DNA of 64,000 bases from Phanerodontia chrysosporium. Lineage: Eukaryota > Basidiomycota > Agaricomycetes > Polyporales > Phanerochaetaceae. Of the stretch, positions 36,631 through 59,731 are shown piece after piece (position 1 is the first letter of the stretch; every line of letters begins with the position of its first letter). The notes under the pieces were generated by a model. The model was not told the DNA's origin, did no database searches, and saw only the letters and a list, made by a program, of their open reading frames with translations. The position numbers and the translations under genes were made by a program. The stretch spans positions 1,426,001 to 1,490,000 of the forward strand of contig MJGA01000003.1 in NCBI GenBank assembly GCA_001910725.1, in the 5' to 3' direction.

Positions 36631-36639
36631 GTCTGCTCC
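36631..36639. repeat. Left 9-bp target site duplication of the TIR element
   Basis: GTCTGCTCC lies directly before the left terminal inverted repeat and recurs directly after the right one (59723-59731). An exact 9-bp direct duplication at both outer edges marks the insertion site. Confidence 0.85.
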
Positions 36640-36923
36640 CAGACTCCTGACCATTCACCCAGGGACGTGTAGGGCTTTCTCAAGGAGTGTCGGGGCGGTT
36701 TGGAACGGCTGTTATCTCGCGACTTGATTATCGGACGTTATCTCGTAGTTACCATTTTAATCCAACATGTAATAGGTTTTATGTCATCTTTCGAAAGCCT
36801 CACGTCCCTGGGCGACTGGCACATAATGTTGGCGCCCGCGGGCGCCTGCTTCGGCGGACAACGAATAAACTCTCGCCGACGCCCGAATTTCCAGGAAATC
36901 TGAGCGCGCGGCGATTGCCGTGC
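36640..36923 (+). repeat. Left terminal inverted repeat
   Basis: 284 bp, matching the reverse complement of 59440-59722 with a handful of substitutions, one block of divergence at about 36748-36768 and one single-base length difference. Inside are a 20-bp inverted sub-repeat (36658-36679 against 36793-36812), two TTATCTCG motifs and a perfect palindrome GGCGCCCGCGGGCGCC. Confidence 0.88.
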
Positions 36924-36974
36924 GCAAGTTCCCAAATCAGGCTGAAGGCCTCCACAACTGCGTATGGGAGGCAT

Positions 36975-38127
36975 ATGACAAGTAGCTGGACAGCGTTTGT
37001 GATACAGACGTACCGAACCCCCATGGAGAATATTGTACATGATTTTGCTCAATATCTCTATGCCCGCCCGCGGCCTGTATCTCTCGCGGCTGTCTTGGAG
37101 TATATCCTGCTCCATGATGGCAACCTGGAACCACCAAGTTCGCCCAGCCCCGCACAGCGCCTTCTCGACGACATCCTGTCGTCGGTACATGTCCTGATGA
37201 CCGCCTTGTGCCGCCACGAGCCCGTAACTTCATGGGTCAGCCAAAGACATTACCGCCTATGCACAGAAGAGCTGCAGGAGCTCGTGATGAAAGACAATGG
37301 ATGGCACTTCAGCGCGGCGCGCGCGAGAGCGGACCAAATCATGGACTTCAAGCTCGAAGCGATGGCGGCAAGGGCGCATGAGCTCGCGCCGAACCTATGG
37401 AGCCTTCTATCCGCCCTCACGCGCGCAAATCCGCGCACTGGATATGATGGAACGGCTTTAAGCGGCAGTGTGGGCGTAGAGTCGGATGAGGATGAGGAGG
37501 ACGACCTTCTGGCGCGGCAGGAAGAGCTGGAGGGGGAGAACCTGCTCGGAAGGGCATCGCGCCGCGCGAAGTCCACATGGGGGCCAAAACGGTCGGTTAC
37601 ACGGCAGCGGGAGACTGTTCGCAGCGTGGTACATCCAGCCAGTTTAAATTATAATGCGATAGACTCACGGCTGCTAAAGCGCCAGCTGGTGGTGCTTGCC
37701 AGCCTTATGCTTACCACCAACCAAAAGTGTAATGCCTTGCAATCAATCGTTGGAATATTCCTCCATGGGCACAACACCCCCGAGAAGGTCTGTGAAGTCC
37801 TGAGCCGCATGGGAATCAGTATCTCGATGGCGGCGACACAAAATGCAATCCGTTCACTAGTGGCAGACGCCATGCGGAATCTCTGGAAGCTTGGGCGGCG
37901 CCGACTGGTTAGCTATTGCTATGACAATTTCGACGTCACTCTGAAGAGCGCAAAGTGGACCATCGATACACAGAAGACCCCCTCACTCCAGCATCTGACT
38001 GCGGCGCTGCTTATCTCCTTGCCGCCTGGTACAATGAAGTCAGATCTACGATACTCTGAATATCTGTGGAAGAACGCACGCCTGAATGATAAGCTGCCAG
38101 ACAATCGGCCCGGTCTGGCTCCGGAAC
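36975..38127 (+). pseudogene. DUF6589 protein, 5' part, interrupted by a Gypsy insertion
   Basis: This is the upstream part of a DUF6589 gene. Visible landmarks are EEDDLLARQEELEGENLL (acidic linker), SRLLKRQLVVLASLMLTTNQK, FLHGHNTPEKVCEVLSRMGIS, and RRRLVSYCYDNFDVTLKSAK with the YDNFD signature of the family. It breaks at 38127, after RPGLAPE. The frame resumes exactly at 54445, once one GGAAC target copy and the retroelement are discounted. The start MTSSWTAFVIQTYR (36975) is favoured because it lies 51 bp from the repeat, as the helicase ATG does on the other side; Met at 37023 is an alternative. DUF6589 proteins abound in Agaricomycetes and are uncharacterised. A transposase role (RNase H-like, with YDNFD and GDL acidic residues) is inference. 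Confidence 0.78.
38123..38127. repeat. Target site duplication of the outer Gypsy element (left copy)
   Basis: GGAAC precedes the left LTR and recurs at 54440-54444 after the right LTR. Five-base duplications are normal for Ty3/Gypsy integrases. Confidence 0.92.
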
Positions 38128-38818
38128 TGTCACGGATGTGACGGTGTTGCCCTATTTTTCGCAGATTTTTGGCTATTTTCCTCGATTAATCCAACGGGCG
38201 AGCAGCCCTCGCGCCGTCTGGAGTCCTAGCCGCCCACACTCAGCGCCTGGCCACTCAGCGCCAGCGCCCTGATGGCGCATCACCCCTAGACGCCAGCGCA
38301 TCCCGCTGCGCGCTCAGACACTGCCCGGATCACCGGTCTGCCTTGCAACCGGTTCCCCGGATCGCTGAGGAGGCACTGTCATTTCTGATGACTCCCCTCG
38401 CCGAGACACGCCGAGCTGATCAGCCTGATGACACAGCCTCGGCCCGACACAGCCCCGAACACTGCCAGCTGACACAGCCTCGTGACATAGCCCCCGCACA
38501 GCCTCGCCGCGCAGCCCGCGTCGCAGCCTCGCTGGCTATGCCAAGCACTGCCCGTCAGCTTAGGTAATCGTACAGCCTGCCCTAGAGTACTGTAGTATAT
38601 AAGGGTAGCACTCCTCGCTCCTGTCCGTCATCTCGACCTCTTGGTCAATACGGACAGGTAAGCCGTCATATGTATTAGTTACTACTTCAATGTTAACTTG
38701 GTCAATACAGACAGCTGTACAAGTTTGTTCGTCGCCGCGTGACACGCTCCGCTGCGCCTCGTCGTCGACCTCCCCATTCGCCCTCCCTCGTGTAGCGTTG
38801 AGCCTCTGCTCCGCGACA
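38128..38818 (+). repeat. Left LTR of the outer Gypsy element
   Basis: 691 bp, TG...CA ends. It contains a TATA box (TATATAAG at 38596-38603), several CAGCCTCG units (about 38425-38540), and a duplicated stretch CTTGGTCAATACRGACAG (about 38640 and 38697). Its copy lies at 53749-54439. Frames of about 60-75 codons inside it are not considered genes. Confidence 0.92.
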
Positions 38819-38951
38819 TTAGGTCGAGATCTCTTGGGTGCCCTAGGCAATTCCTTCCCTACCGCTCCCCCAAATACCGTTTAAAAAAAGTTTATTCCCT
38901 CCGATTAAAGCGAGTACGTCGTAGTCGAGCAGCCCGCTCACTCCGTACACG

Positions 38952-39698
38952 TTGCTAAGGCTTGCTTTCGCAGTGCCGAAAGACGTTCGTCGAAGCGCGG
39001 CCTCTCCGCCCCCGAACGCACCCTTGCTCAAAGACCACATCCCCCAACGCATTTTCGACCGCCTCCAACGTCGTCGCGAGGCCGGCAACCCTGTCAAGTG
39101 GACTGACCGCAAAGTCAAGGCGGTCATCAAGTACGTCTCTACGCTCCCGACACCTCCACCCTCCGTCCCCTCCATCAACTGGACCGCTGTCCGCGAAGCC
39201 TGCGAAGCCGAACAACGCGTAGGCAACCGCATCCGCGAGCAGCGCCAGCGCGAGGCGCAAGAAGCCCAGGCCGCCGTAGCTGCCTCCTCCTCTAAGCTCA
39301 GTTTGGCAGAGCGCCTCAGCGCCGCCCCGACGTACGAGCCCATCGCCCGCAAGCCCATCGGCATCGACATCCCGAAGTACTCCCCCACCGACCTCGTCGG
39401 CATCTTTACGCCCAAGCTCGACGCAACCATCAAGCGTCTCAAGGCCGTCGAAGAAGTCGACCTCTTCCACCTCGTTAACAGCGACCGCGCGCACGGCGTC
39501 TGCCAGCTGCTCGAACGCCTTCGGCAGATTCGCAACGAGCTCAGCCGCCTCGCTCCTACCACTACGTTTAAGGAGTGGCATCAGTACGAGCTTGGACTAG
39601 CTCAGATTGGTGACATTCCGTTCGTCGGTTTAAGGCGCAATTTCCGCCGCATCGTAGGAGAGCTGGACATAGTGTACCGGGCCGGGTATTTCGATTAG
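38952..39698 (+). CDS. Pre-gag open frame of the outer element, function unknown
   Basis: 248 codons are open in the element's own direction, ahead of gag. The product is rich in Arg/Ala/Glu with coiled-coil-like stretches (RIREQRQREAQEAQAAVA, DATIKRLKAVEEVDLFHL, LERLRQIRNELSRL) and ends VYRAGYFD. The frame contains no Met codon; the listed start is a TTG and the upstream stop is at 38922. It must therefore be reached by splicing (an acceptor-like ttcgcag lies at 38967-38973) or non-AUG initiation, or be read as part of a gag precursor. The frame continuing toward gag is at -1 and stays open from about 39615 to gag, including DCSNCPHFFG. No known domain is recognised. It resembles in position and size the pre-gag frame of the inner element. 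Confidence 0.55.
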   Translation: MLRLAFAVPKDVRRSAASPPPNAPLLKDHIPQRIFDRLQRRREAGNPVKWTDRKVKAVIKYVSTLPTPPPSVPSINWTAVREACEAEQRVGNRIREQRQREAQEAQAAVAASSSKLSLAERLSAAPTYEPIARKPIGIDIPKYSPTDLVGIFTPKLDATIKRLKAVEEVDLFHLVNSDRAHGVCQLLERLRQIRNELSRLAPTTTFKEWHQYELGLAQIGDIPFVGLRRNFRRIVGELDIVYRAGYFD

Positions 39699-40126
39699 TT
39701 TACAAATACATTTCTGTCGCTCTGGATTTCGATTGTTCGAACTGCCCGCACTTCTTTGGGCGAACTACAGAGAACGGTGTCACTGCTCCTGCTGATCTCC
39801 ACGTCGAGGAGAACAACGGGTCTCGAGAAGCCAGGGAGTGCAGTCAGCAGCCCTGCCCTTATCGAGAAACTGCCCCTCCGCTACTCCCGGTTCCGCCTAG
39901 CGACCGAGAAACACAGTTCGAACGCCCTCATTTCGCGCAACGGCTAGAATTCGCCCGCGCCTCTGCCACTACTCCGAATACTCCCGATCACAGTCCCCCG
40001 GACAGCAGCCACCACTCGTCCCCCGAGACATCGCTCGGCTCCATCCTCTCCGACCACGAACCCGCTCCCTCGCCGTTTAATCTCTCCCGCGCTCAATCAG
40101 GAGCCAACACTCCCCGTCCCCCCAAT

Positions 40127-41377
40127 ATGTCAAGTACTCCCGGCGGAGCGCCTCCTGGCCCGACTCCCCCCGACCCCATCTCCGCTGCTCTCCTGCAAAT
40201 GGCCCAGGCGATGACGCAGCTCACAAACACGGTTAACACTCTGGCCCAAACTATTGGCGCCAATCGGACAACGGTCAACGCAACGGTTAACGCCAACAAG
40301 GAGCTCCCCTTCGTCGAGAAGCCCGTCCCGTTCAAAGGGAAAGGTTCGGACACGGCCCGTCTCTTCCGCGCCGCCTACCGCATCTACGCCGATGGACAGC
40401 CGGAGAAATTCGGCAAGCGCGACGTCAACGGCAACCTCCAGCGGGACCCCGAATCCGGCAAGATCTTGGTGGATGGCCAGAAGTGGATCGTCGGCGCTCT
40501 CTCCTTCATGCAGGATGAAGCGGCCGAATGGGCACGGCAGTACATCGAGCAAGCGGCAGACGGCACTCAGATATTCGACGGCTCTCGCGCTACGTTCTGG
40601 GAGGCCTTCAAGAACCGGTTCGAGCCCATGGACGAGAAGGCCGAGGCTCTCAGCAAGCTGCAAGCTTGTACGCAGGGCAACCGTCGGTTCGCGGAGTTCT
40701 TTGCGGAGTTCCAAGCCCTCGCCGGCCGCACGAAGCTCACCCCGGAAGACCTGGCAGCCCGGCTACGGACGAAGTTTAATAAGGACTACCTCGAGCGGAT
40801 CTCGTACATGGTCAACCCCGCTACTGGCAAAGGCCCCGAGACGTATGACGAGCTCAAGAACGCGGGTTTCGCCGTCGACCGGTCGAAGGACAAGCTCTCG
40901 CAAGACCTCCTGGCACAGCAAGGCAAGACGTCTTCGACTCCGGCTAGCTCGTCAGCGCGCGCCTTCCGCGACCCGAACGCGATGGACATCGACGCCGCGA
41001 ACATTGACGAGCTGTTTAAGGGTCTCACTGGCACGGATCTCAAGCGCCAGTTCGACGCCGTCATGAAGGACCGCTGCAAGGTCTGCGGCTCGAAGTCCCA
41101 CAAGTCCACGGACCCCGTTCACCGTGATTCGGTCTGCAACCACTGCGGCAAGAAGGGTCACTGGTCCCGCGTCTGTCGTGCTCGCCTCGAGGGCAAGCCG
41201 AGAACTGCCCCCGCTACCGCCGCCGTTCGCGCCTCGTCTTCGGATACCTCGTCTCAGGACTCCTCGTCTCCGGCCTCCTCGTCTTCTGGCAGCTCGTCTG
41301 ACGACCAAGCCGCCGCGCTCGCCGCCCTCCGTGATCAGCTGGCCCTGATACAGAAGCAGCTCGGGGGTTTTGCTTAA
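40127..41377 (+). CDS. Gag of the outer Gypsy element
   Basis: The product is the capsid-type protein that packages element RNA. The retrotransposon gag core is recognised in VPFKGKGSDTARLFRAAYRI, ALSFMQDEAAEWARQYIE and TFWEAFKNRFEPMDEKAEAL. A CCHC zinc knuckle CNHCGKKGHWSRVC lies at about 41138-41180, preceded by a second Cys-rich segment CKVCGSKSHKS. A Ser-rich and then charged tail ends LGGFA, stop at 41375-41377. The ATG at 40127 (MSSTPGGAPPGPTPPD) is the first Met, although the frame is open about 500 bases further upstream, so the real N-terminus may be longer. Pol follows in the -1 frame. Confidence 0.88.
   Translation: MSSTPGGAPPGPTPPDPISAALLQMAQAMTQLTNTVNTLAQTIGANRTTVNATVNANKELPFVEKPVPFKGKGSDTARLFRAAYRIYADGQPEKFGKRDVNGNLQRDPESGKILVDGQKWIVGALSFMQDEAAEWARQYIEQAADGTQIFDGSRATFWEAFKNRFEPMDEKAEALSKLQACTQGNRRFAEFFAEFQALAGRTKLTPEDLAARLRTKFNKDYLERISYMVNPATGKGPETYDELKNAGFAVDRSKDKLSQDLLAQQGKTSSTPASSSARAFRDPNAMDIDAANIDELFKGLTGTDLKRQFDAVMKDRCKVCGSKSHKSTDPVHRDSVCNHCGKKGHWSRVCRARLEGKPRTAPATAAVRASSSDTSSQDSSSPASSSSGSSSDDQAAALAALRDQLALIQKQLGGFA
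41365..41371 (+). promoter_or_regulatory. Candidate -1 ribosomal frameshift site, gag to pol
   Basis: GGGTTTT sits in register with gag codons (g ggt ttt), fitting the X-XXY-YYZ slippery pattern. It lies two codons before the gag stop. The -1 frame is open from here through the protease, so a slip gives a Gag-Pol fusion. A downstream stimulatory structure was not evaluated. Confidence 0.55.
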
Positions 41378-41493
41378 GGGGCCGGAGTGACGCCGCATCG
41401 TCGGTCCCCGTTTCGTCAAGCCCGGATTCAACTCCGGCACCGTCGTTAGAACCACAGGACCTTTCAGATACCATCCGCTCATGTACAATATCA

Positions 41494-43500
41494 GTGCTAG
41501 ATCCTTTCTCGAATCACTATCGTGTACCTGTAAAGCTCACCGGACTCAATAAAACTATTCGCACGCCTGCAATGATTGACTCCGGTGCGACTTCGCTATT
41601 CATCCACGAGGATTTCTGTAAGCAACACAAGATCCTCACGGTACCACTCAAGAAGGAAATTACACTGTACAACATCGACGGAACCAAGAATGAAGCAGGG
41701 TCTATCACGCGCCGTGCTAGACTCCAGCTCACTGTGGGTTCGTACACGTTTAAGGAGGAGTTTCTTGTCACAAACATCGGTCCGGAGGATGTCATCCTCG
41801 GACTTCCGTGGCTCAAGAAATGGAATCCGAACATCGACTGGGAAACGGGAGATGTCCAGTTTCAGCTCCGCGGCGGAGCTGAGGACACCCCGGTTTTCGG
41901 TATCCATCAGATTGACGCCAACCGCTCCGAACGCCGTGAATGGCTTCGAGCAGGCATTGTTGAGGACGCCAAGGACGAAGTCTGGATCCTCGCCGGCTAC
42001 ACTTACTCGCAAGCGATCGCTGTCGAAGCCAATCGCGAGAAGTACGCCAAGACGTTCGAAGAGCTGGTTCCCAAAGAATACCACCGACACAAGAAGGTGT
42101 TCTCTGAAGAGGAATCACACCGCCTTCCGAAGCATCAGCCCTGGGATCACGCGATAGATCTCGTCCCGGACGCCCCGGCCTCGATCAAATCGAAGGTTTA
42201 TCCCATGTCCCCGATCGAGAATGAAGAACTACAGCGGTTCATCGACGACGCACTCGCCAAGGGCTATATCGTCCCCAGCAAGTCTCCGATCGCTTCTCCT
42301 GTCTTCTTCATCAAGAAAAAGGACGGCAAGCTCCGGTTCATTCAAGACTACCGCAAGCTCAACGACATCACTGTGAAGAATCGGTACCCCCTCCCGCTCG
42401 CCTCCGATATCATCGGGAAGCTCCAGGGCGCTAAGATCTTCACCAAGTTCGATGTCCGATGGGGCTACAACAACGTCCGGATTAAGGAAGGTGACGAGTG
42501 GAAAGCCGCCTTCGTCACCAACCGCGGCCTCTTCGAGCCCAGAGTCATGTACTTCGGTCTGTGCAACAGCCCTGCCACGTTCCAGGCCCTCATGAACCAC
42601 ATCTTCGCCGACCTCATCGCTGAGAGCAAGGTCGCAGTTTACCTCGACGACATCCTCATCTGGTCGAACGATCTCGCTTCGCATCGGAAGATTGTTCACG
42701 AAGTCTTGGCACGCCTCGCCAAATACGATCTGTATCTTCGGCCCGAGAAGTGCGAGTTCGAGCGCTCAGAGATCGAGTATCTTGGGCTCCTCATCAGCGA
42801 AGGACAAGTCGGCATGGACCCCGGCAAGGTTAAAGCAGTAGCCGAGTGGCCGACCCCGAAGAACCTCAAAGACGTACGAGGCTTTGTCGGGTTCGCCAAC
42901 TTCTACCGCCGCTTCATCAAAGACTTCTCAAAGATCTGCCGCCCGCTGCACGATCTGACGAAGAAGGACACTCCGTTTAATTGGGGTCCCGCACAGGCAG
43001 AAGCCTTCGAGACGCTCAAGCGCGCTTTCACGACTCAGCCTGTGCTCGCCATGTGGAGTATTGATCGGCCAACTCGCGTCGAGACCGATGCTTCTGGCTA
43101 CGCCACCGGAGGAGTCATAGCCCAACGCAATCCTGAAGATGGTCTCTGGCATCCAATCGCGTATCGCTCGCAAACCATGAGCCCCGCTGAGCGGAACTAC
43201 GAGATCTGGGATCGTGAGATGCTTGCAATCATCGAAGCTCTCAAGGATTGGCGCCAGTTCCTCGAAGGTCTCCCGGAGCCTTTTGAGATCTGGACCGATC
43301 ATCAGAATCTCCAGTACTGGAAGACTGCGCAGAATCTCACGCGGCGACAAGCCCGATGGGCCTCCTACCTCGCTGAATACGACTTCCGCATCATCCACCG
43401 CCCTGGCAAGACCCATCTCCTCGCTGATCCGCTCTCCCGGCCCTCCTCGCTGCATGTCTCCGACGAAGAAGACAATCGCTCGCAGATAGTATTGAAGCCG
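41494..43500 (+). pseudogene. Pol of the outer element, 5' part (protease, RT, RNase H), split by the inner element
   Basis: The aspartic protease motif MIDSGATSLFIHEDF opens the part. Reverse transcriptase follows with PVFFIKKKDGKLRFIQDY, TKFDVRWGYNNVRI, the FGLCNSPATFQ region and the catalytic VYLDDILIWSN. RNase H follows (VETDASGYATGGVIAQ, WDREMLAIIEALKDWRQFL, IWTDHQNLQYW), and the part ends RSQIVLKP at 43500. The frame has no Met before the protease and is open upstream into gag at -1, consistent with frameshift expression. The stop shown after 43500 belongs to the inserted LTR. Discounting the inner element and one AGCCG copy joins LKP directly to ELFKIAATA at 52082. Confidence 0.9.
43496..43500. 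repeat. Target site duplication of the inner Gypsy element (left copy)
   Basis: AGCCG lies before the LTR at 43501 and again after the LTR ending at 52076 (52077-52081). It marks insertion into the pol gene of the outer element. Confidence 0.92.
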
Positions 43501-44025
43501 TGTCAAAGTAAACCCCGCTACTTACCTTAGTAGCTTTGGTGGGGTGAGACTTGACTGCGAGAGTGAAGTAGTGGTAGACGAGGTAGATGATGCTGGGGAC
43601 TTAAGCCCAGCAGAGCCCGGTATATATACATGAAGGGGAGGACCCCTGGTACTACCCGAGACCCCTGATACTGCCCATCACATGCACGATGGCGTGATGA
43701 TGGTGCGATACTTGCCAAGACACTCCGGGCTCGGCGAAGTCTAAAGCCGAGTACCGGATGTGTCCGGAACCTTCTACGCTATTCTAGAATACACTACCCG
43801 GACCCTGGGTCCGGCTACCTACTATACCCTTGTACCGGAGCGTCTACATCATAGATAAGATAAAGATAAGATCCTCACACGACTCTGAGTCCATTCCCAG
43901 CACGTGACCAACACGTGACCGCGTTCTGACGCGTGCCTGTCCTAACCCTAGTCCATAACCCTAACCCCTGGCGCCTACTGGGCGCTTACAGGAATAAAAC
44001 CGTAGGGAATTAGAAAACTGTGACA
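43501..44025 (-). repeat. 3' LTR of the inner element
   Basis: 525 bp with TGTCA/TGACA ends. It contains a TATATATA box (about 43620-43628) and, toward its transcription-upstream end, telomere-like ccctaaccc / ataaccctaacccc units at 43940-43970. Its partner is 51552-52076. Confidence 0.92.
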
Positions 44026-44066
44026 GTACCCCCTCTTCAGATTCGAACTCCCGAGAGAAGACTTTT

Positions 44067-47000
44067 TTATTTTCCAGTGGATCCAAACCCGCCTGAGCCA
44101 CGATCGGTTGACTGTAGCGTTTCGACAACTTCTATGTCGGCATCGGCGATTTTCTCCAGGATCAATTGAGCCGCCCTATCTCCAGTCGTGACTGTGAAGT
44201 CACTGTCGCTTGTGTTAAGGAGTAGTATTTTGACGATACCCGTGTAGTCCCGGTCGATAACACCTGCGCCGACATGAATGCCTTTGAGTGCCAGTCCTGA
44301 TCGTGGTGCAATTCGTCCATAGGTCCCAGTTGGAACTCGGATGTGAATGCCAGTGCTGATGAGTTTGCGGTCTCCTGCTGGAATTGTTGCATCTTCTGCT
44401 GCATACAGGTCCCAGCCTGCTGCCTCGGTAGTGCTCTTGGATGGTGTCTTTCCACCATCTAGAACGATTTGAAGGGTTTCCTCTTCATCGAGTTCTAAAC
44501 CGTCTGTTTCCATAGGTGCTTCTTCGTTCCGAACGCGCCAAAATTCCGCGATCTTCTCTTTAGCACCTTCCAGATTACTCTCTGGTTCCCATTTGTCTTC
44601 TTCTGGCCCATAACCCTTCCACCGAACCATGTACCAGTTTCGTTTCCTGACACGCCCGGTAGTCTTGTGGTTGAGAATTTTCTCGACCTCATACTCGAGC
44701 TCTCCGTCATGAACTTCTGGCTCTGGCGGTGCGGCTCGTTGGCCGACGATGGAGGGTGTAGAATAGGGGATTAATTTACTAGCGTGGAACACCGGGTGAT
44801 ATGCCCTATATTGTGGAGGCAGTTTCACCTTGAAGGTTACTTTGGACAGTTGCTCGATGATTTCGAACGGTCCTAGGTACCTCGGTGTCAGCGTGCGTTG
44901 AGTGGTTTGGTAATCCTTTGAATTCAGCAGGACTTTGTCGCCGACTTTAAACGGCACTTCTTGCTTGTTCTGGTCGTAGTACCACTTCATACGGTCCGCT
45001 GCTAGTTGTAGGGCTGCTTTGGCCTTGTCTTGGGCGTCTTGTCTAAGTCTGAATATCTCGTTCAAGTCTTTGCTTTTGGCTTGCTTGTCGAGAGTTGGTC
45101 CTGCCCGTGGGTGTCTACCATATTCTAGAAAGAACGGTGTGTCCTTTGTACTTTCATGTGCTGCGTTGTTGTAGGCGAATTCTGCAGTGGGCAGATAATC
45201 GACCCAGTCTTCGTGATTGACATTATCAGCGAAGCAGCGTAGGTACTGTTCTAGAACTTGATTTACTCGTTCAGTTTGACCATCTGTTTGAGGGTGATAT
45301 GCCGTAGACATCGCTGACTCGATACTGAGTAGCTTACACCATTCTTGAAAGAGTTCAGCCGCGAATTGAGTTCCTCTGTCTGAGATTATCTGCAAAGGTA
45401 ATCCGTGGATAGGGTAAATTCTATCCATCAGGATCTTTGCGAGGTCTTTAGCAGAGAATTTGTTCGTTATCGCGAAGAAACGTGCTCTCTTGGTGAGTCG
45501 GCATACAACGACGAGGATGGCGTCCTTTCCTCTTGATGGCATCAACTGAGTAATCAAGTCGATGGTAATAACTTCCCAAGGTCCGTTAGGTACCTTGTTG
45601 GGCATGAGTTGTCCGTAGGTCTGCTGTGTGCGATTCTTCATTCGCTGACACGTGTCGCAACCTGTGACGTATTTCTTGACGAAGACAGACATTCCCGGCC
45701 ACCAATAGTTTCGGGAGACAAGTTCGTAGGTCTTCCATCTGCCTGGATGTCCGGCTGATGGGTGGTCGTGGTGCATTTGGACTATTCGTCGTCGTAAGTC
45801 CTCATTCTCATCCTTCGGTATGTAGATATGTCCCCGGAAGAGTAGCAATCCATTCTCAAAGTTCCATTCCTCTAACGGTTTCTTGAACTCGCGTGGGCCT
45901 GATTTGAGTAACGATTGATAGTTCTTGGTGACTTCGTCGGATAACAGAGCCTTCTTGACCTCTTGGAGCAGTAAATCGTCGTTTACTGGAGCGTCATGGG
46001 AGGCGTCGATCGCGCAGACTTCGAGCAGATTGGCGAAAAATTCTGGCTTCAGAAGAATATGGTCGCGATTATCGAGTTCTACCCCCTCTTCATGATCTGG
46101 TCTCCTGGACAGAGGGTCTTCAGCTTCCATTGTTTTACCCGGCTTGTGGTGTAGTGTGAAATGGAATCTTGTTAGGTATAGTGCCCAACGAGCTTGACGG
46201 CGAGACAATTTCTGGGCCTGCTTGAAATAAGTCAGGTTCTGGTGGTCTGACCATATCTCGAATTTTTCCGGATGTCCCTCTAGATAGTGCCTATACTCTT
46301 CTAACCCGCGGATTATGGCCAACATCTCCTTGTCGTATATCTCATAGTTCCTTTCGTGAACATTGAGTGACTTGGAGTGGAAGGCTACCGGATGGTAAAG
46401 CTTATCGTTTGGGTCGAGTTGTGACAGAACCGAGCCGATCGCGAAGTCACTCGCGTCGGTAGAGAGCCTGAACGGATTAACGTCGTCCGGAATTCGTAGA
46501 ATTGGTGCAGAAGTGAACGCCTTTTTTAGGTCGTCAAACGCCTTCTGCTGTTCAGAACCCCATTCCCATGGTTGATCCTTCTTGGTGAGTACCGTGAGTG
46601 GCTTCGTGATCTGCGCAAAGTCTTTAATAAACCTGCGATAGAAATTCGCGAATCCAAGGAATGCCTGAACGTGCTTGACCTTGGTCGGTACGGGCCACTC
46701 CGTTACGCCTGTGACTTTAGCAGGGTCCATTTCTACATGATTTTTGGATATAATCATGCCGAGGTAGGCGAGTTTGTCCTTCTCGAATAGACACTTTTCT
46801 GCCTTCGCGAAGAGGTCGTTGTCTTCCAGTCGCTGCAACACTTCGTGTACGATCTTTCGATGTTCCTCGCGGTCATTGCCGAAGATGAGGATATCGTCAA
46901 GGTATACCATAACCTTTCCTTGACGGATAAGGTCTTCGAAGATGTTGTTCATCATATTCTGGAATGTTGCCGGTGCGTTTGCGAATCCAAAGTACATAAC

Positions 47001-49783: not shown

Positions 49784-49916
49784 TGTTTCTTAGTCAAAAG
49801 GTATGTTAGTACAAATTCTTTCCACTTTTACAGTTGGAAAGTAAGGAAAACTCTTATGTATCACACAGAAGTTCAGTGTCAGGTGGAGTTTTTATTGCAT
49901 CGGGTTACAGGTGGAT

Positions 49917-50702
49917 TTAATATTCGAATGAGATGTTGAGAGCGACGAGCTCCCTTGCGATCTCTACATATCGAGTACTAAAGTTGTCGAAGGATACATA
50001 TTTTATTTTCTTTAAATCCCTCGTAATCCACCTGTAGTGCTTTCCCTTCAACTTCTTTCTCCCCTTGTTCTCGTCGAAGTGGTCGTATAAGTCTTCGAAG
50101 TCAACGAGCAACTTCGAGACCTCGTCGCCTAGCTCCTTGTCGACTTTGTCGATGTCGACGAGGTGGTCGCTGAGCGGTACCAGACGAAGGTTTACCGCGT
50201 TGAACAAATTCATCATCTCTTTAGTTCGATCGATGATGTGCGACTTCTGTATACGACCTGCTTCTTTCGGGACCTTGCCTTGCATGTCGCCGTCGTTCCC
50301 GTATGTCTCCTCGACCTCTTCTTGAGACAGGTGCTGAGGGGGGCCCAGGCGACTCAGGAGTGAGGGAGCCGGATTCGAAATCCGGTCCTCGAGGCGTTTG
50401 CGCGCCTTCATCTCCATGATGAGCCTGGAGGCCTGTTCGAGCGCCCAGAGGCGTTCCTCGAACTCCTCGTTAATGCGATCCTGCTCGGCCTTCGGGACGG
50501 GGCGGGTGATGGTGCGACGGTTGCGCTCGCGCTGGAGGAGATACTTCTCGCGCTGTTTGGGGCGCTCGATCTCGGCCAGCTTCTCCTTGACCTCCTCGTA
50601 GACCTTTTCTTGGGTCTCCTTGCGAAGCGAGATGCGCTCGGCGAGGGAGGGGTAGGGGGCGGCGGCGTTGCGGGCAATGATGGTCTTGTTGTAGAACTTC
50701 AT
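49917..50702 (-). CDS. Pre-gag accessory gene of the inner element, function unknown
   Basis: 261 codons from a genuine ATG (MKFYNKTIIARNAAAPYPSL) to NISFEY, in the element's own direction, 133 bases before gag. It is highly charged and predicted helical: LRKETQEKVYEEVKEKLAEI, REKYLLQRERNRRTITRP and EEFEERLWALEQASRLIMEM read as coiled coil. A C-terminal half follows with NLRLVPLSDHLVDIDKVDKEL and YVEIARELVALNISFEY. No Cys, no hydrophobic segment and no known domain. Gypsy elements normally start with gag, so this is an added gene. It could be a matrix-like extension, an RNA chaperone or a regulator; none is supported directly. The outer element has a frame of similar size in the same place. 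Confidence 0.75.
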   Translation of the reverse strand: MKFYNKTIIARNAAAPYPSLAERISLRKETQEKVYEEVKEKLAEIERPKQREKYLLQRERNRRTITRPVPKAEQDRINEEFEERLWALEQASRLIMEMKARKRLEDRISNPAPSLLSRLGPPQHLSQEEVEETYGNDGDMQGKVPKEAGRIQKSHIIDRTKEMMNLFNAVNLRLVPLSDHLVDIDKVDKELGDEVSKLLVDFEDLYDHFDENKGRKKLKGKHYRWITRDLKKIKYVSFDNFSTRYVEIARELVALNISFEY

Positions 50703-51551
50703 CTTAGTGATAACATAATCAACCAGCGTCCTTTTACAGGTACGGCTTATGGAAGGAAAAGTGTTCAGAAAATGAGGGTTACCAGCCCTCTCTTGCTGCG
50801 GTTCGAATCTTGATGCGCGCGCATTCGTGGGTAGAGTCGTTTACGGCATGCCATTATCTCTCTGCACATGCGCGATGGGGGAGTTTCAGATCTCAGTCGG
50901 GTTTCCACACCCGCTGCAAATGGTTTGTCGTGCCTTACGGCTACGATCTCCACGGACTTCCTAGATGCTAGCGTCTTACCGCTTGTCATCCAGTACCGGG
51001 GATGCGGTCACCTTGCGGTGGACTCAACACCCCACGCGTCGCGTGGCCACTTACGCCTGTGGATCGGCAAGAAGATTCCCATGCTGTATTGCACAGCCCG
51101 CCCACGTGGTCGCACTCCTGGCGCCACGTGTCCAACGGTGGGTCTCAACGTGTCAAGCCCCTTGTCAGGTGGCCCAACATATCCCCCAGATCCCAAGTCG
51201 TTTAGGTCTCCGGACAGGCCGAGCACAGCATCGCCTATTACAGGTCGATGTGCGCTTCGAACCCGCCAACACAAACATCACTCGCGATAATTCGACGAGT
51301 AATGCCCATGCGATCCCATGGCCGACGACGTACAGCCCCCTTTTACAGGTGGACCTCAGTCGCCAGCCCCACGAATGAAGAACTACCCCTATTACAGGTG
51401 GTAGCCGCGCATCGAAGAAGCGAACCTGCGAACGCAAGATTATAAGTGGTAAAAGGTGCCGACGTCGCCGGCAACGACGTCGAGCACGCTGCGCACGACG
51501 ATCAAGCCCTTAAGGCCGATGTCGACGCGAAGGGGTATAGCATCATCTAAA
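50703..51551 (-). other. Leader of the inner element with repeated CCACCTGTAAWAGG-like motifs
   Basis: About 850 bases lie between the 5' LTR and the pre-gag ATG with no credible gene on the coding strand. On the plus strand a motif close to CCYWTTACAGGTGG recurs at about 50728, 51231, 51340 and 51387, with a weaker copy at 49906. On the element's strand this reads as CCACCTGTAAWAGG. It may serve as packaging, splice or regulatory signals; a role is not shown. Confidence 0.5.
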
Positions 51552-52076
51552 TGTCAAAGTAAACCCCGCTACTTACCTTAGTAGCTTTGGTGGGGTGAGA
51601 CTTGACTGCGAGAGTGAAGTAGTGGTAGACGAGGTAGATGATGCTGGGGACTTAAGCCCAGCAGAGCCCGGTATATATACATGAAGGGGAGGACCCCTGG
51701 TACTACCCGAGACCCCTGATACTGCCCATCACATGCACGATGGCGTGATGATGGTGCGATACTTGCCAAGACACTCCGGGCTCGGCGAAGTCTAAAGCCG
51801 AGTACCGGATGTGTCCGGAACCTTCTACGCTATTCTAGAATACACTACCCGGACCCTGGGTCCGGCTACCTACTATACCCTTGTACCGGAGCGTCTACAT
51901 CATAGATAAGATAAAGATAAGATCCTCACACGACTCTGAGTCCATTCCCAGCACGTGACCAACACGTGACCGCGTTCTGACGCGTGCCTGTCCTAACCCT
52001 AGTCCATAACCCTAACCCCTGGCGCCTACTGGGCGCTTACAGGAATAAAACCGTAGGGAATTAGAAAACTGTGACA
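51552..52076 (-). repeat. 5' LTR of the inner element
   Basis: 525 bp, matching 43501-44025 without a difference in the stretches I compared, which implies very recent insertion. It carries the same TATATATA box and telomere-like motif. Confidence 0.92.
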
Positions 52077-52081
52077 AGCCG

Positions 52082-53710
52082 GAGCTGTTTAAGATAGCCG
52101 CCACGGCGGTCTTCGCGAACCCCTCCCCTCTCGAGAAGCGCATTCGCGACTGCTCCGAAAAGGAAAAGGAAGTCGCAGAAGCTCTGCAGGTTCTCCGGAC
52201 CAAGGGGCCCCGCAAGCTCCGCAACGGCGTTCTTGAATGGGAAGAAGACGACGGCCTTCTGTACTACCATGGGAAAGTCTACGTCCCGAACAGTGCCGCG
52301 CTGCGCAACGACGTCATCAAGTCCTGTCACGACGCGCCGACTGCCGGACACCCCGGAAAGCACACCACCCTCGAATTGGTTTCTCGGTACTATTGGTGGC
52401 CGCGCATCTCCGCCGACGTTAGCCGCTACGTGCTCGGCTGCGATCAATGCCAACGGTACAAGTCCGCCCCACATCCGAAAGCCACTCTACAGCCCCACGA
52501 TGTCCCTTCAGGGCCCTGGGAACACGTCGGCGTGGATCTCATCACGCAGCTCCCACGCGACGCCAAGACCAAGAAGGACTCAATCGCGGTCTACGTGGAC
52601 CACTACTCGGATCAGTGCCACCTTGTGCCGGTCGACTCAACGATCACCGCAGCCGGGATGGGCGACGTTCATTACACCGACATCTTCCGCCTCCACGGCC
52701 TTCCGCGCAAGATCTTCTCCGATCGCGGGCCACAGTTTGCAGCTCAGTACATGCGAGCGCTGTACAAGCGCCTCGGCATCGCTACCGGCCTCACCACGGC
52801 GTATCACCCGGAAGGCAATGGCAAGGTCGAACGCAAGAACCAGGAAGTCGAGAAGTTCCTGCGTCTCTTCGTCTCCCAGCGCCAAGATGACTGGGTCGAT
52901 TGGCTCCCGATGGCCGAGTTTACCCTGAACTCGCACGTGTCTAGTGCTACCGAGCGCACACCCTTCGAGATTGTCTACGGCTATACACCGGACTTCACGA
53001 TCCCGGCCGGCAAACACACCAAGGTTCCCGCTCTCGATGAGCGCCTAGACCGCATGGCTCACGTTCGCAAAGAGGCCGAAGCTGCCCTGCGCCTAACCAA
53101 AGCCCGCATGAAAGAAGAATACGAGGCCGCGAAGAAACGCGCCCACTCCTTCAAAGTCGGCGATCAGGTTTGGCTCAGCACGAAGGACCTCAGCATCGAT
53201 CAGCCCTCGCCCAAGCTCGGCCCCCGCCAGCTGGGTCCGTTTAAGGTTCTGGAAAAGATCGGCGATCTGGACTATCGGCTCGAGCTCCCGAGCTGGCTGA
53301 AAATCCACCCAGTTTTCCATGTCAACCGCCTCAGCCCGTGGCACGATCAGGGCGTCGAGAAGCCTCTGCCTCCCAAACCTGTCAAGGTTGCCGGCGAAGA
53401 AGAATACGTCGTCGAGAAGATCCTCGACAGCCGCATATACCGCCGCCAACTGCAGTACAAGGTTCGCTGGAAAGGCTACGGCCAAGCCGGCGACACGTGG
53501 GAAAAAGCAGACAACCTCAAGCACGCCAAAGCTCTGGTCAACAAGTTCCATCGCGAAAATCCGGAAGCACCCCGCAAGCTCGCTGCCACCGCCTTCGAAG
53601 CCCTCGCCGCCTCTTTTCGCCCGTTCGTCACCGAAGTCGACGTCTCCCACCTCTCTGTCTCCGATCGCGCTAAAGCCGATCTCGACTGGGAGGAGGGGCG
53701 CCACATCTAA
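52082..53710 (+). pseudogene. Pol of the outer element, 3' part (integrase, chromodomain)
   Basis: This continues the pol frame cut at 43500. The integrase zinc finger HDAPTAGHPGKHTT and CDQCQRYK is followed by the catalytic core (GVDLITQLPRDAKTKKDS, FSDRGPQFAAQYM, and the Glu in NGKVERKNQEVEKFL). GPRQLGPFKVLEKIGDLDY belongs to the integrase C-terminal domain and the chromodomain is EEYVVEKILDSR to VRWKGYGQAGDTWEKA. It ends WEEGRHI, stop at 53708-53710, 38 bases before the right LTR. Unlike the inner element there is no dUTPase. The part itself has no internal stops. Confidence 0.9.
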
Positions 53711-53748
53711 CGACCTCACGAGGACGCTCGGTTTTAGGAGGGGGGTAA

Positions 53749-54439
53749 TGTCACGGATGTGACGGTGTTGCCCTATTTTTCGCAGATTTTTGGCTATTTT
53801 CCTCGATTAATCCAACGGGCGAGCAGCCCTCGCGCCGTCTGGAGTCCTAGCCGCCCACACTCAGCGCCTGGCCACTCAGCGCCAGCGCCCTGATGGCGCA
53901 TCACCCCTAGACGCCAGCGCATCCCGCTGCGCGCTCAGACACTGCCCGGATCACCGGTCTGCCTTGCAACCGGTTCCCCGGATCGCTGAGGAGGCACTGT
54001 CATTTCTGATGACTCCCCTCGCCGAGACACGCCGAGCTGATCAGCCTGATGACACAGCCTCGGCCCGACACAGCCCCGAACACTGCCAGCTGACACAGCC
54101 TCGTGACATAGCCCCCGCACAGCCTCGCCGCGCAGCCCGCGTCGCAGCCTCGCTGGCTATGCCAAGCACTGCCCGTCAGCTTAGGTAATCGTACAGCCTG
54201 CCCTAGAGTACTGTAGTATATAAGGGTAGCACTCCTCGCTCCTGTCCGTCATCTCGACCTCTTGGTCAATACGGACAGGTAAGCCGTCATATGTATTAGT
54301 TACTACTTCAATGTTAACTTGGTCAATACAGACAGCTGTACAAGTTTGTTCGTCGCCGCGTGACACGCTCCGCTGCGCCTCGTCGTCGACCTCCCCATTC
54401 GCCCTCCCTCGTGTAGCGTTGAGCCTCTGCTCCGCGACA
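53749..54439 (+). repeat. Right LTR of the outer Gypsy element
   Basis: 691 bp, the same length as 38128-38818 and without visible difference. It is followed by the second GGAAC target copy (54440-54444) and the continuation of the DUF6589 gene. Confidence 0.92.
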
Positions 54440-54444
54440 GGAAC

Positions 54445-56152
54445 CTAGTTTCGAGCACATGCTCGGGATCCACCCACAGTACTGGCAGGCGGGTGGCGGC
54501 TGCGCGAACGGATCCGCACGGTGGCAGGCATGGAAGTTCCTCCATGATTTGATTCACTACGGCCCTGCCTACTTCCGCCAATTCATTCCTCTCCTTAGCC
54601 CCCCCGAGACCATTGATGCCGTTCCCCTCGCGAAGACCGAATGCACTCCTGCGAAGGCAATGGAGAAGTCAAACTCAACAGTGTCAGGAAATCTCGAGGC
54701 AATTAAAGACTTACTCGGCCAGGGGGTATTGCTTCGGGAGATGAGCAGCTGAGTACCGACACTGATGGCGACAATCTGTCAGACGATGAAGATGACGATC
54801 CCGAAATGAGACGTCCTAAGCCGATACGCGGCTATGCCGTTCTCGTGCACGGTGACCTCGGCACTGGGGAGCGAATTTCGGCAGTCCTGGGGCAGCGCGC
54901 CATCGAGAAGACTCCGTGGAGGAGGCTTTCATTTATCGTCTATGTCATGGGCCTCTTCCATCTGAAGATGGCATGCGCAGACGCGATCTGGCGACTATTG
55001 ATCTACCCGACGCTTGCCCGACTCGACAAGATGTCCGTAATGCAACATGTCGGCATCCTGCGTGAACGCGAGACAGGGATCATAGGCAAAGATCCAGGCT
55101 TCCGAAGAATGCACCAGATCATCACCCACGACGGCCGCTGTCGGCGGCTCCACTGCTGGTCCCAGGAGGTGAAGGCGCGCGATGGCCAGTACGAGACACT
55201 GGAAGCATGGGGGGAGCGCGCGAAACCGTCCTTCAGTGAACTGTGCGAACTCTCGACACACCTCGCGAAGACGTATGTCGGTACCACGGCACGCATCGAG
55301 GAGCTTCGCGGTGCCGAACAGCGAGATGAGCAGCTGGAGAACGCCTTGATCATCAATCTATACTACCTGATGTACGAGGAACTGACGTACGCAATGAACG
55401 TTGGTGACATTGGGCGTGTCGAAGCCTGCTTCGCGCCGTGGACACTGGTCTTCAAGACTGTCGGGAAGCACAAGTATGCCGCTGAGATGATAAAGCACAT
55501 CACGAATGTGCACTACTTCTATCCGGAACGTCTCAAGTAAGTAAGAATTGAGCACGCCGTAGAAAGAGACTGACCAGAGTGTATTCACCAGGCGAGCTGT
55601 CAGATACTCTATGCTTGTCAACCCGACAGGCCTTCCTGGTAAATTCCGTGGTACCGATTGGGTTATCGAGCTACAGAACCTATACACGAAGGTAAGGCAA
55701 GCTATCAAGAGGTCTCGGGATGGACTTACATAGTTACCCGACAGTCCGTCCTAGTCGCACCTGGTCCAAACCGTACCGTCGAGGCAATCATCAAGGAATC
55801 AGTATTAATAAATATCTTCCGGAATGCGCACCTAACACTCGAGAAGAACCTCGCACTCAATTACTTATCGACGCATCATTCCGATCCGGACATGACGCAG
55901 ACATATGCCGTACTCGAAGAACATATGAGACGGTACTTACCATACACCTTCCATCAAGGGCGGAAGAGTTCACGCAGATTGCAGGACGCATTCATGAGAG
56001 GGCTGGAGAGGCTAGCGAAGAAGGCGACTACGAGTACAGAACTGGGATCGGCAGCTACGGGCACTGGTACAGACGGTGAAGAAGCGGTCGGCGCCGATGA
56101 GGAGGCGTCGCCTGACGAAGATGACATTAGTTTAGATCTCGAGGGCTTGTAA
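54445..56152 (+). pseudogene. DUF6589 protein, 3' part
   Basis: This resumes the frame cut at 38127: PSFEHMLGIHPQYWQ, then an acidic linker (LSTDTDGDNLSDDEDDDPE). The family core is YAVLVHGDLGTGERI, EKTPWRRLSFIVYVMGLFHLKMACADAI, then ELTYAMNVGDIGRVEACF and HKYAAEMIKHI. After an intron near 55539-55591 come NPTGLPGKFRGTDWVIELQN and, after another, VEAIIKESVLINIFRNAHL. The product ends DDISLDLEGL at 56152. Between GNLEAIKDLLGQG and GIASGDEQLS the frame changes at about 54722-54725; one added G in the G run restores it. GDL, and the His in FHLKM, are conserved in the family and could be catalytic. It converges with the helicase gene. Confidence 0.78.
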
Positions 56153-56210
56153 ATACACGTACTTAGATCTCGATTGGCGTGCGGAGGGTGCTCAGCGCTG
56201 CGACAACGGC

Positions 56211-59200
56211 TCACCGCGCCGAGAGAGGAGGGCTTACGAGACGCACGGTAAACGGTGCAACGGGTGCTCCCGAAGGTTGAGGCTCCTCACTGGAGGTCGA
56301 CGGGTCTGGCCCCAGGTGGTGGAAAGACTGCTGGCCAGATTGTAGCGGTTGGACTGGCTGAGGGTGGATGAATATCGAGGGCATGGATACGTCGGACATG
56401 CTTGGTATCATATCGGAGGAGGGGATACTGGACAAGGGGTTGCTAACGAAGGGGGACGGCTCAAGGATGGCGTAGCGTGACACTAAGTAGTGCGAAGTGT
56501 TGTTAATGAACGTGTCGCAGCAGCATAGGCAAGCGCTCACCTGGGACGGCCGCTGTAGTCTGCAGACCAGCCGACATGCTTGCGCCAGGGGGATTGGAAT
56601 CCGACGAGGTGACACTTGAGATGACCGACAACGCGGAGGATGGTGAGGACGCAGGGGGGGACAGTGCAGAGGTCTGAGAACTGAGCGATGATGTAGAGGC
56701 TGCGGGGGAGTCTTCACTGTTCGAGCGGGTGCTACCGTTCTTCTCGACTGTAGCATTGACAGACAAGGACGGAGTCCCGCGGGCACGAGCAGCGATGTTC
56801 ATCGGGTGCTCAGGATGCGCAAGGCATTTATTCTTGTGATTCTCTGATCAAATGAGATACTACCCAGGAGATCGATAGACTGTGCACTCACTATAGTGGC
56901 CAGTGACCCCGCAAGCACTGCAGCGTGGTGGTGCCCGTGACTCGCCTTGAGCGGCCGCTACCGCGATATTGTCGGGTTCGACGGGCCCTGTGAGCACTGC
57001 AGACCGTGGGGACTGAGCGACGGCTGGCGGCGGCCGTGTAGAACGCCAGGTAGAGAGGATCTCGAGAACTTGGTTTGCGTACCGAGAGACATCCTTCCAG
57101 CCACTTAGTTCTCGCTCCAAGTCCTCGCTCGTCTCGAGTTTCTCGGCGAAGTCGATTACACGGTTGAGGACTTCGTCGGTCATGAGCAGACCAACGCCCA
57201 TGAGCGTTATGCGCCCTTCGCCGTAGCGACTAATGGCCTCTGCTTTGCGCCAGGAGCAAAGCAGGTCGGTGAGGGGCATCTTGTCAGGCGAACGGACGTA
57301 ACCCTTCGGTAGACGGGAGCGGCGGGGCTTGGTCTGCTTCTGGAGGATGGCGGCGACGAGCTCCTTCTCGAAGTAGAGGGGATCGCAGAGGTCGCAGCAG
57401 TACTCGGATGGGGGTAAGACGCAACGTGTGCAGCCGGTGGGGACGCTCGGGTCACAAAGTTTGTGGTCGGTGTCTGCGCGGGCAATGCAATGGGTGGGGT
57501 GTTCCGGAAAAGGCAATTGCAACGATAACGCTCTCACCTCTTGCATCACTATCGAAGTAGAGCTTGAGGGCGGTTCTCCGACAACGCAGTCCACGATATT
57601 CGGCATTGATTATGTCGGCAACCTCAAGGTCAAGTTCCTGAACGGCTGGACCTTTCTTTTTAACGGTGCCCTTCTTGCTGGTTGCCTGCTCGCTTGCCAT
57701 CTTCTTCGCGCGTGCCTCACTGACATAGCAGGCTCTTCGGTCCTCGTACAGCTGTCTCTGTCGCTGTTCGGCGTCGGTCTCCATTTCGGGGCCTGGGTTC
57801 TCCTCAGCAGCCCCCATTTCCGGGTGTCCCCCGGCCTCCTCGTTTGACTCCTGCTGTCCCGGGCCTTCTTCACCTACGCCGTCCTCAGGTACGTCTTCGA
57901 GGTCCAGCTCCAGTTCGTCTGCGTCGTCTTCTGGCTCCTGATCTTCTGCGTGGTCCCAGCCTTCCGGACGTGTCACAGCCTCTTGTTCGACAGGCTCTGC
58001 GACAATATCCCCGTGCACCTCGACAGCACGGCGCTTCGGGCTGCGCTCCGTTTCGATTGTCAGCTCGCCTGTTTCAGAGGTACCGGTATGTTTCTTCCGC
58101 TTGCGTGCCGCTTTCGCATTCCTTTTGGCCCGCGCCTTATCTTTCTCTTTACTTTCCAGGTATTTGTCTTCAACGAAGATGATCCCGAACGCAGTGTAGC
58201 GTCTGTCACGAGCGCCGCGGCCTAGCCGCTGCCACAAGGTAATCAAGTCGCATCTTGTTCGCCATTGTACAACAATTTTAATGTCCGGCAGATCAACCCC
58301 CTTGCATGCGCCGTGTGAGCAGAATATTTACTCGAGTAGTTAAGAGTACATACCATGCCAAAGGCGTCGGTGGCGCAGATGCCCCAGATTTCCCCTGTCC
58401 GCAGCTTCTCCAAGGCTTCGGCCTTGAACTCATCAGACATGTTGGAGTGGAACCATACAACCTTGTCGCGCATCGCCTCGTTTCGGATCCTCTGACGCAG
58501 GTACCTGCCGGCAGCAGTGCATTCACTGACGCTGTCAAAGAATGCGACAAATTTAGGTGGCGCCTCATCGCCTTCTTTCCAGCTTTCTGGTACCAGAAAG
58601 GAAAGATCTCGATAGGAGTCCACGGCGTGCTCAATTTTTCTGACACCAATATGGATATTGGGCCAGTCATTGGGTCGCCTAATGTGAACATAGTTCCCAC
58701 GAGCCAGTCCAAAGGACTGCTTGATCTCATCAAGAATCAGCGGCGAGAACGTCGCAGAAGCAAAAGCAAAAGGAGTCTCCGGAAGCAGATACCGCAACCG
58801 TGAGATCTCCTTGTATTCAGGCCGGAAGGAGCCCCATTGAGTGATGCAATGGGCTTCATCAAACACTACAGCAAGAACTTGGGAGCAGAACGAAGGCTCC
58901 CGAAACAGCTTCTCAAAGCCGCCCCCATACTTTACAAGCTGCTCCGGGCTTGATATGACAACGCTGTATCTTCCGTCCTTGATATTCTGAATGAAAGCAC
59001 TTCAGCTGCTACTCTACACCTGATAGATATTATCCTATACCTTTAGATTTTCGTCAGTTGCTGTATTTCCGGTTATTGCTATGGCAGGTATCCCGGCGGC
59101 CTCTAGCTGCGCCGCCATCTGGGCCGCAAGGACATTGAGTGCGGTGACAATGAACAGTGTTTGATGAGGCTCAGCGAAGAGCGCGAGAGTGTAGAATGCA

Positions 59201-59388
59201 AGGGTCTTCCCTTGCCCTGTGCCGACGTCGAGAATTACATTCTTCCCGCCCCAGATAGCCTCGGGGAACTGGTATTGCCAACGGCAGTTGCGTACGCCGA
59301 ATCTCGCTGCCACGCGCTGACGGACCGCAGCGATCGTTGGGCCTCCGGATGGTATACAGTTGCCATTTGTGGATGAAGGGCGCGCCAT
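56211..59388 (-). CDS. RecQ-family DNA helicase of the TIR element
   Basis: A multi-exon helicase. It shows VAARFGVRNCRWQYQFPEAIW (Q-motif region), Walker A DVGTGQGKT (about 59215), VVFDEAHCITQWGSFRPEY (motif II plus the RecQ aromatic loop), FASATFSPLI (motif III), VVWFHSNMS (IV), GEIWGICATDAFGMGVDLPD (V) and LWQRLGRGARDRR (VI, a variant of QRxGRxGRD). Zn-binding region: CDPSVPTGCTRCVLPPSEYCCDLC. The C-terminus adds an acidic/Lys-rich linker, a zinc-knuckle-like CSACGVTGHYNKC and a Ser/Pro-rich tail ending at 56211. Introns are at about 58320-58368, 57480-57540, 56828-56890 and near 58985-59040. It resembles fungal telomere-linked and transposon-borne RecQ genes. ATG 59388 lies 51 bp inside the right repeat. 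A role in element excision or repair is inference. Confidence 0.85.
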
Positions 59389-59439
59389 TTGAGAGCTTCG
59401 ACGGTGGACAACGCGTGGACAACGTGGCGGAAGATACGT

Positions 59440-59722
59440 GCACGGCAATCGCCGCGCGCTCAGATTTCCTGGAAATTCGGGCGTCGGCGAGAGTTTATTC
59501 GTTGTCCGCCGAAGCAGGCGCCCGCGGGCGCCAACATTATGTGCCAGTCGCCCAGGGACGTGGGCTTTCGAAAGATGACATAAAACCTGCTGACATACAG
59601 ACAAAAATGGGAATTACGAGATAACGTCTGATAATCAAGTCGCGAGATAACAGCCGTTCCAAACCGCCCCGACACTCCTTGAGAAAGCCCTACACGTCCC
59701 TGGGTGAATGGTCAGGAGTCTG
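59440..59722 (-). repeat. Right terminal inverted repeat
   Basis: 283 bp, inverted copy of 36640-36923, ending GGAGTCTG immediately before the target duplication GTCTGCTCC (59723-59731). It carries the same palindrome and internal fold-back arms as the left copy. Confidence 0.88.
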
Positions 59723-59731
59723 GTCTGCTCC

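Follow-up and report, generated by a model that had tools for sequence, protein, structure and literature searches.

A single transposon fills positions 36640-59722 of a 64,000-nucleotide stretch of the Phanerodontia chrysosporium genome (C69:1426001-1490000 of a 39.0-Mb, 145-contig genome), the whole of which we call the window. It is a genuine but disabled copy of a DNA transposon. We consider it quite probable that the element is an old cut-and-paste transposon of the AcademH type, in which a DUF6589 protein is the DDE transposase and a RecQ-type helicase plays an accessory role.

The window element and its relatives

The window element ends in terminal inverted repeats (TIRs) of 284 bp (36640..36923, plus strand) and 283 bp (59440..59722, minus strand), which align at 95% identity over 285 columns. 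The left repeat starts with the tip CAGACTCC, common to 10 further insertions for which both ends were read. The 9-bp target site duplication (TSD) GTCTGCTCC abuts each tip (36631..36639 on the left, 59723..59731 on the right); its sequence occurs in the window solely at 36631 and 59723, and its reverse complement has zero occurrences. Two convergent genes lie between the repeats. DUF6589 is read on the plus strand from the left, and the RecQ-type helicase on the minus strand from the right. The first part of the DUF6589 gene (37023..38127, plus strand) runs from a candidate start codon at 37023 to a retroelement insertion and includes a tblastn match to the C57 copy of the transposon at 37677-38123. 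The remainder (54445..56152, plus strand), identified by Pfam and tblastn, holds a PF20231 match (E 2.6e-53) that is split over frames and contains an internal stop. The helicase gene lies at 56860..59388 on the minus strand, as several open pieces with a candidate start codon near 59388 and with GTGQGKT and DEAH pieces. One gene piece matches TIGR00614 with E 3.4e-18 and 65.7 bits, against a model cut-off of 219.8. Both genes are broken, as seen in the retroelement insertion, the match split over frames and the stop within the DUF6589 match.

A preliminary description, made from the sequence of the window, had called this a complete mobile unit with inverted repeats of about 284 bp, an exact 9-bp duplication and, once nested retroelements are removed, about 6.8 kb that code for DUF6589 and RecQ proteins. 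The TIRs and the GTCTGCTCC duplications at the tips bear this out, both domains were matched, and by arithmetic the transposon measures 6,766 bp once the outer retroelement, together with its 5-bp duplication, is subtracted.

We surveyed this one genome for relatives, starting from the left TIR (12 matches), from DUF6589 matches and from other tips. The survey yielded 16 insertions with related tips and both ends read, the window copy included; C83, of which one end was read, and C113:1330k are left out of this count. Perfect 9-bp duplications, all mutually different, flank 15 of the 16, and C2:941k matches at 8 of 9 positions. The preliminary description had made its case depend on a second copy with new 9-bp duplications, and this set supplies such copies. 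The CAGACTCC tip is shared by the window, C64, C60, C57, C87 and C33 copies and by five short ones, whereas C1, C113, C124, C135:614k and C2:941k have TAGNCTCG tips. DUF6589 and the helicase both lie inside 10 of the 16 insertions, namely the window, C64, C60, C57 and C87 copies and all five with TAGNCTCG tips. TIR length ranges from 142 to 284 bp across the CAGACTCC families. The inverted-repeat similarity of C1 and C113 covers the tips plus about 65 bp of inner sequence, and that of C124 and C135 extends little past the tips. The five short copies (C91:323695-325017, C135:112072-113380, C80:817315-818719, C54:70293-71986 and C122:7450-8846) are non-autonomous, measure 1.3-1.7 kb and form two sets that are 97-99% alike within a set over their aligned parts. 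Apart from the ends, most of their sequence is matched by neither the C57 nor the C64 element.

Several copies are nearly identical. C1 and C113 agree at 99.93% over 6.07 kb, and C124 and C135 at 99.2% over 7.69 kb. In both pairs the identity ends at the tips, and flanks and duplications differ; in C1 and C113 it extends two bases past the tip, which are two letters common to both duplications. The two end repeats of the C57 copy are 100% identical, as are those of C64. Because near-identical pairs sit at different sites, the sequences indicate that the family has moved recently in this genome. Measured by TIR identity (95%), the window copy is older. In an empty-site check, joined flanks carrying a single duplication gave half matches only at 3 of 3 sites (of 8 joined flanks), so this assembly holds no empty allele of those three sites. 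An inverted duplication that arose by chance, or a duplicated stretch holding two host genes, is favored over a transposon by nothing except that the window copy is broken. That explanation is contradicted by insertions that arose independently and carry different exact 9-bp duplications, by nearly identical copies in unrelated places and by the non-autonomous copies, and we give it practically no credence.

Some loci were irregular. C33:21928-63931 has CAGACTCC tips 42 kb apart with the same duplication GTGTGGATG and further repeat pieces between them; judged from its ends, it is a copy with heavy nesting or else a larger composite. The left end of C60 is duplicated (C60:175953-176251): the first copy is truncated to about 118 bp, TGC comes next, and then the tip begins again. 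This TGC is the end of C60's 9-bp duplication. For C94, one 8/9 match between candidate tips is at chance level and was not accepted. No tips were found in 6.5 kb each for C59 and C2:415k, or in about 20 kb each for C102 and C73.

DUF6589 as a probable transposase and its RecQ partner

Pfam lists DUF6589 as a family of unknown function. We predicted the structures of two DUF6589 proteins (predicted local distance difference test scores of 88 and 87). In the VIA-align rows, both models align best with DDE transposases, with matches to Hermes (hAT), the P element, ISCth4 (IS256), Tn5 and Transib/RAG1. We treat Hermes, the P element, ISCth4, Tn5, RAG1 and Transib as fold matches and claim none of them as the family of the element. 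The predicted fold has an RNase H core with a helical insertion preceding the last acidic residue, and candidates for the D-D-E residues are conserved in the DUF6589 alignment, as are further acidic residues. Our argument from fold rests on the VIA-align rows together with conservation, since Foldseek alone was judged insufficient. Because the predicted fold is of the DDE type and the acidic residues are conserved, DUF6589 is very probably the transposase of these elements. Its catalytic activity is putative, as is the choice of the third acidic residue of the triad. The preliminary description had proposed that DUF6589 is the transposase and that modeling should reveal an RNase H fold with an acidic triad; predicted fold and conservation now support that proposal as probable.

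The DUF6589 alignment also shows a conserved histidine. At the place of the C or D in the C/DxxH motif, 139 of 145 sequences have G, giving GxxH. Between the second D and the E, no aligned column pair fits C/DxxH in more than 30% of the sequences in either group; a C/DxxH-like string occurs somewhere in this stretch in 55 of the 145. A homolog search scored 7,997 candidates, 639 of which match one query. PF20231 is present in every row among the best 120 of these 639 and among the best 120 of 217, and the named sources in both sets are presumably agaricomycetes where recognized.

We found 43 DUF6589 matches in the genome and grouped them into 17 loci. A helicase search of this genome alone, in which a single exon from the element's helicase served as query, scored 16 candidates and returned 15 matches, all at DUF6589 loci. 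The loci with no helicase match are C73 and C83. No helicase match fell outside DUF6589 loci among the 16 candidates; with a single exon from the element's own helicase as query, the search may overlook host RecQ genes that are more distant. The assignment to the RecQ family comes from NCBIfam (below cut-off) and from PDB sequence matches, the best of which is WRN (E 2.4e-17). The two genes are convergent in 12 pairs and divergent in C124, C135 and C2:941k. RecQ is thus a steady co-traveling gene of DUF6589 transposons in this genome. The DUF6589 subfamilies have 19-24% identity to the C1 protein, and because they differ so greatly, the pairing appears to be old. According to the preliminary description, such an element would explain why RecQ-like genes are scattered in Agaricomycetes. 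For RecQ-like genes of this type, that holds in the one genome searched, where 15 of 15 matches lie at DUF6589 loci. In two divergent copies (C59:294879-296729 and C2:419079-419726) the DEAH motif of the helicase reads DEVH or DDVH, and the helicase may therefore be decaying or changed there.

These data bear on the idea that the element is of the MuDR/MULE type, with long inverted repeats, a 9-bp duplication and a captured RecQ gene. In maize Mu the TIRs measure about 215 bp and the duplications 9 bp (abstract of PMC2774946), and the IS256-type ISCth4 is among our fold matches. However, a Pfam scan of seven pieces of the broken window element gave DUF6589 and helicase domains and no MULE domain, and C/DxxH is absent at the conserved histidine. 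Casual capture of RecQ is also at odds with a helicase that accompanies 15 of 17 loci over subfamilies about 20% identical. We regard a MuDR/MULE origin as very improbable.

In the mechanism that we propose for an AcademH-type element, the DUF6589 transposase would bind the long inverted repeats, pair the two ends and cut at the CAG/TAG tips. Joining of the cut ends to target DNA would be staggered by 9 bp, and repair would produce the 9-bp duplication. The RecQ helicase may have an accessory role, either opening or processing the ends or aiding repair after insertion or excision. Should DUF6589 prove to be the transposase of a transposon that bears a helicase, many "hypothetical proteins" of fungi, along with the RecQ-like genes adjoining them, would be reannotated as mobile DNA. 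The role of a helicase in a cut-and-paste transposon and the reason for the 9-bp duplication become testable questions, because near-identical copies at different sites point to recent movement.

Subterminal repeats and nested retroelements

Within the ends of the window element we noticed a subterminal inverted repeat, with its outer arm at 36651..36669 and its inner arm at 36801..36819 on the left (plus strand) and at 59693..59711 and 59544..59562, respectively, on the right (minus strand). Across ends the repeat is 17-20 bp long, allowing for a few mismatches; it starts 10-14 nt from the tip, and its second arm ends at 86-181. A score of at least 13 was reached in 18 of 31 ends, many of which are copies of one sequence. 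The other 13 ends are C60 left (both the truncated tip and the full copy), C1 and C113 right, C124 and C135 left, C2 left, C91 both, C135:112k both, C122 left and C33 right. The repeat is present in four unrelated end sequences (types W, for the window, C57, C1 and C124); the TAG-tip families carry it at a single end. We first noticed it and then tested it, which makes the statistics partly after the fact. None of 60 shuffles reached the observed score in 7 of 11 ends (W, C64, C57, C80, C1 left, C124 right and C2 right); the remaining four were not outstanding (C91, 5/60; C1 right, 26/60; C124 left, 55/60; C2 left, 54/60). We observed one compensatory change between W and C64, where an A-T pair becomes G-C, and one between C124 and C2, where a G-C pair becomes T-A.

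The subterminal repeat may represent two binding sites in inverted orientation, or it may form a hairpin. One speculative reading, to which we assign a rather low probability, is that DUF6589 represents its own deep transposase lineage, or an unrecognized AcademH core, with hairpin-capable ends on which RecQ would act in a strand-opening or hairpin step. We know of no such step in other DDE transposons.

The 16.3-kb insert in the window element consists of nested gypsy elements that are not part of the transposon. The outer gypsy (38128-54439, plus strand) has two identical 691-bp long terminal repeats (LTRs) and a 5-bp duplication, GGAAC, and splits the DUF6589 gene. It is itself split by the inner gypsy (43501-52076, minus strand), which has identical 525-bp LTRs and the 5-bp duplication AGCCG. 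Both insertions look recent, because the LTRs of each pair are identical. The inner gypsy contains a 1,393-aa frame with a chromodomain and with a dUTPase domain at its end.

Comparison with known transposon families

The DUF6589-RecQ family is most likely AcademH, reportedly described by Kojima in 2020, rather than a new superfamily; membership in Academ by descent is putative. Our surprise is moderate, because this kind of transposon is already published. The preliminary description held that helicase-bearing transposons are usually Helitrons, yet PMC10045372 and PMC9587614 already report helicases in two lineages with TIRs, AcademH and KolobokH. A survey of fungal helicase sources names AcademH, KolobokH and Helitron and places AcademH in Basidiomycota (PMC10799480). 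KolobokH resembles our element in that a RecQ helicase stands beside a DDE transposase, in fungi only, and Kolobok elements are described with TTAA duplications and RR..YY termini (PMC9587614). The elements found here differ in having 9-bp duplications of no fixed sequence and CA or TA tips instead of a 4-bp TTAA and RR..YY, and the conserved histidine of DUF6589 is not in a C/DxxH motif. A fungal Kolobok lineage with RecQ is therefore, in our estimate, even less probable than a MuDR/MULE origin.

hAT (Hermes), the P element, IS256 (ISCth4) and Transib/RAG1 are alike in the RNase H core with helical insertion that is predicted for DUF6589. hAT, P and MuDR share C/DxxH, which DUF6589 lacks at its conserved histidine, and hAT duplications are usually 8 bp, compared with 9 bp here. 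Zisupton/Plavaka was rejected, its duplications being 8 bp, or 2-3 bp, versus 9 bp here. Helitrons lack TIRs and target duplications. They were rejected as well, since they are described with an HUH nuclease/Y1 transposase, a helicase and single-stranded transposition, whereas the window element has a predicted DDE-type fold, TIRs and duplications.

In the literature that we searched there was no mention of DUF6589, and PF20231, "DUF6589 domain" and "Academ-like" were never paired with transposase or with each other. This silence counts for a superfamily separate from Academ, whose DUF6589 transposases with GxxH would have gained RecQ and the 9-bp stagger independently. We judge such a superfamily to be clearly unlikely. 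A helicase, TSDs of 9-10 bp and basidiomycete hosts are the published marks of AcademH, and it would be a coincidence if this combination had arisen in the same fungi from two unrelated sources. Within Academ, PMC10045372 ties TSD length to the accessory gene: AcademH has a helicase and TSDs of 9 or 10 bp, and the other lineage, AcademX, has a nuclease instead and TSDs of 3 or 4 bp. A RecQ helicase is listed in Academ (PMC3627910). The preliminary view that no nameable superfamily fits the element thus finds no support. The present family agrees with AcademH in every published mark that we compared, namely a helicase gene (RecQ in Academ), 9-10 bp duplications, TIRs and occurrence in Basidiomycota.
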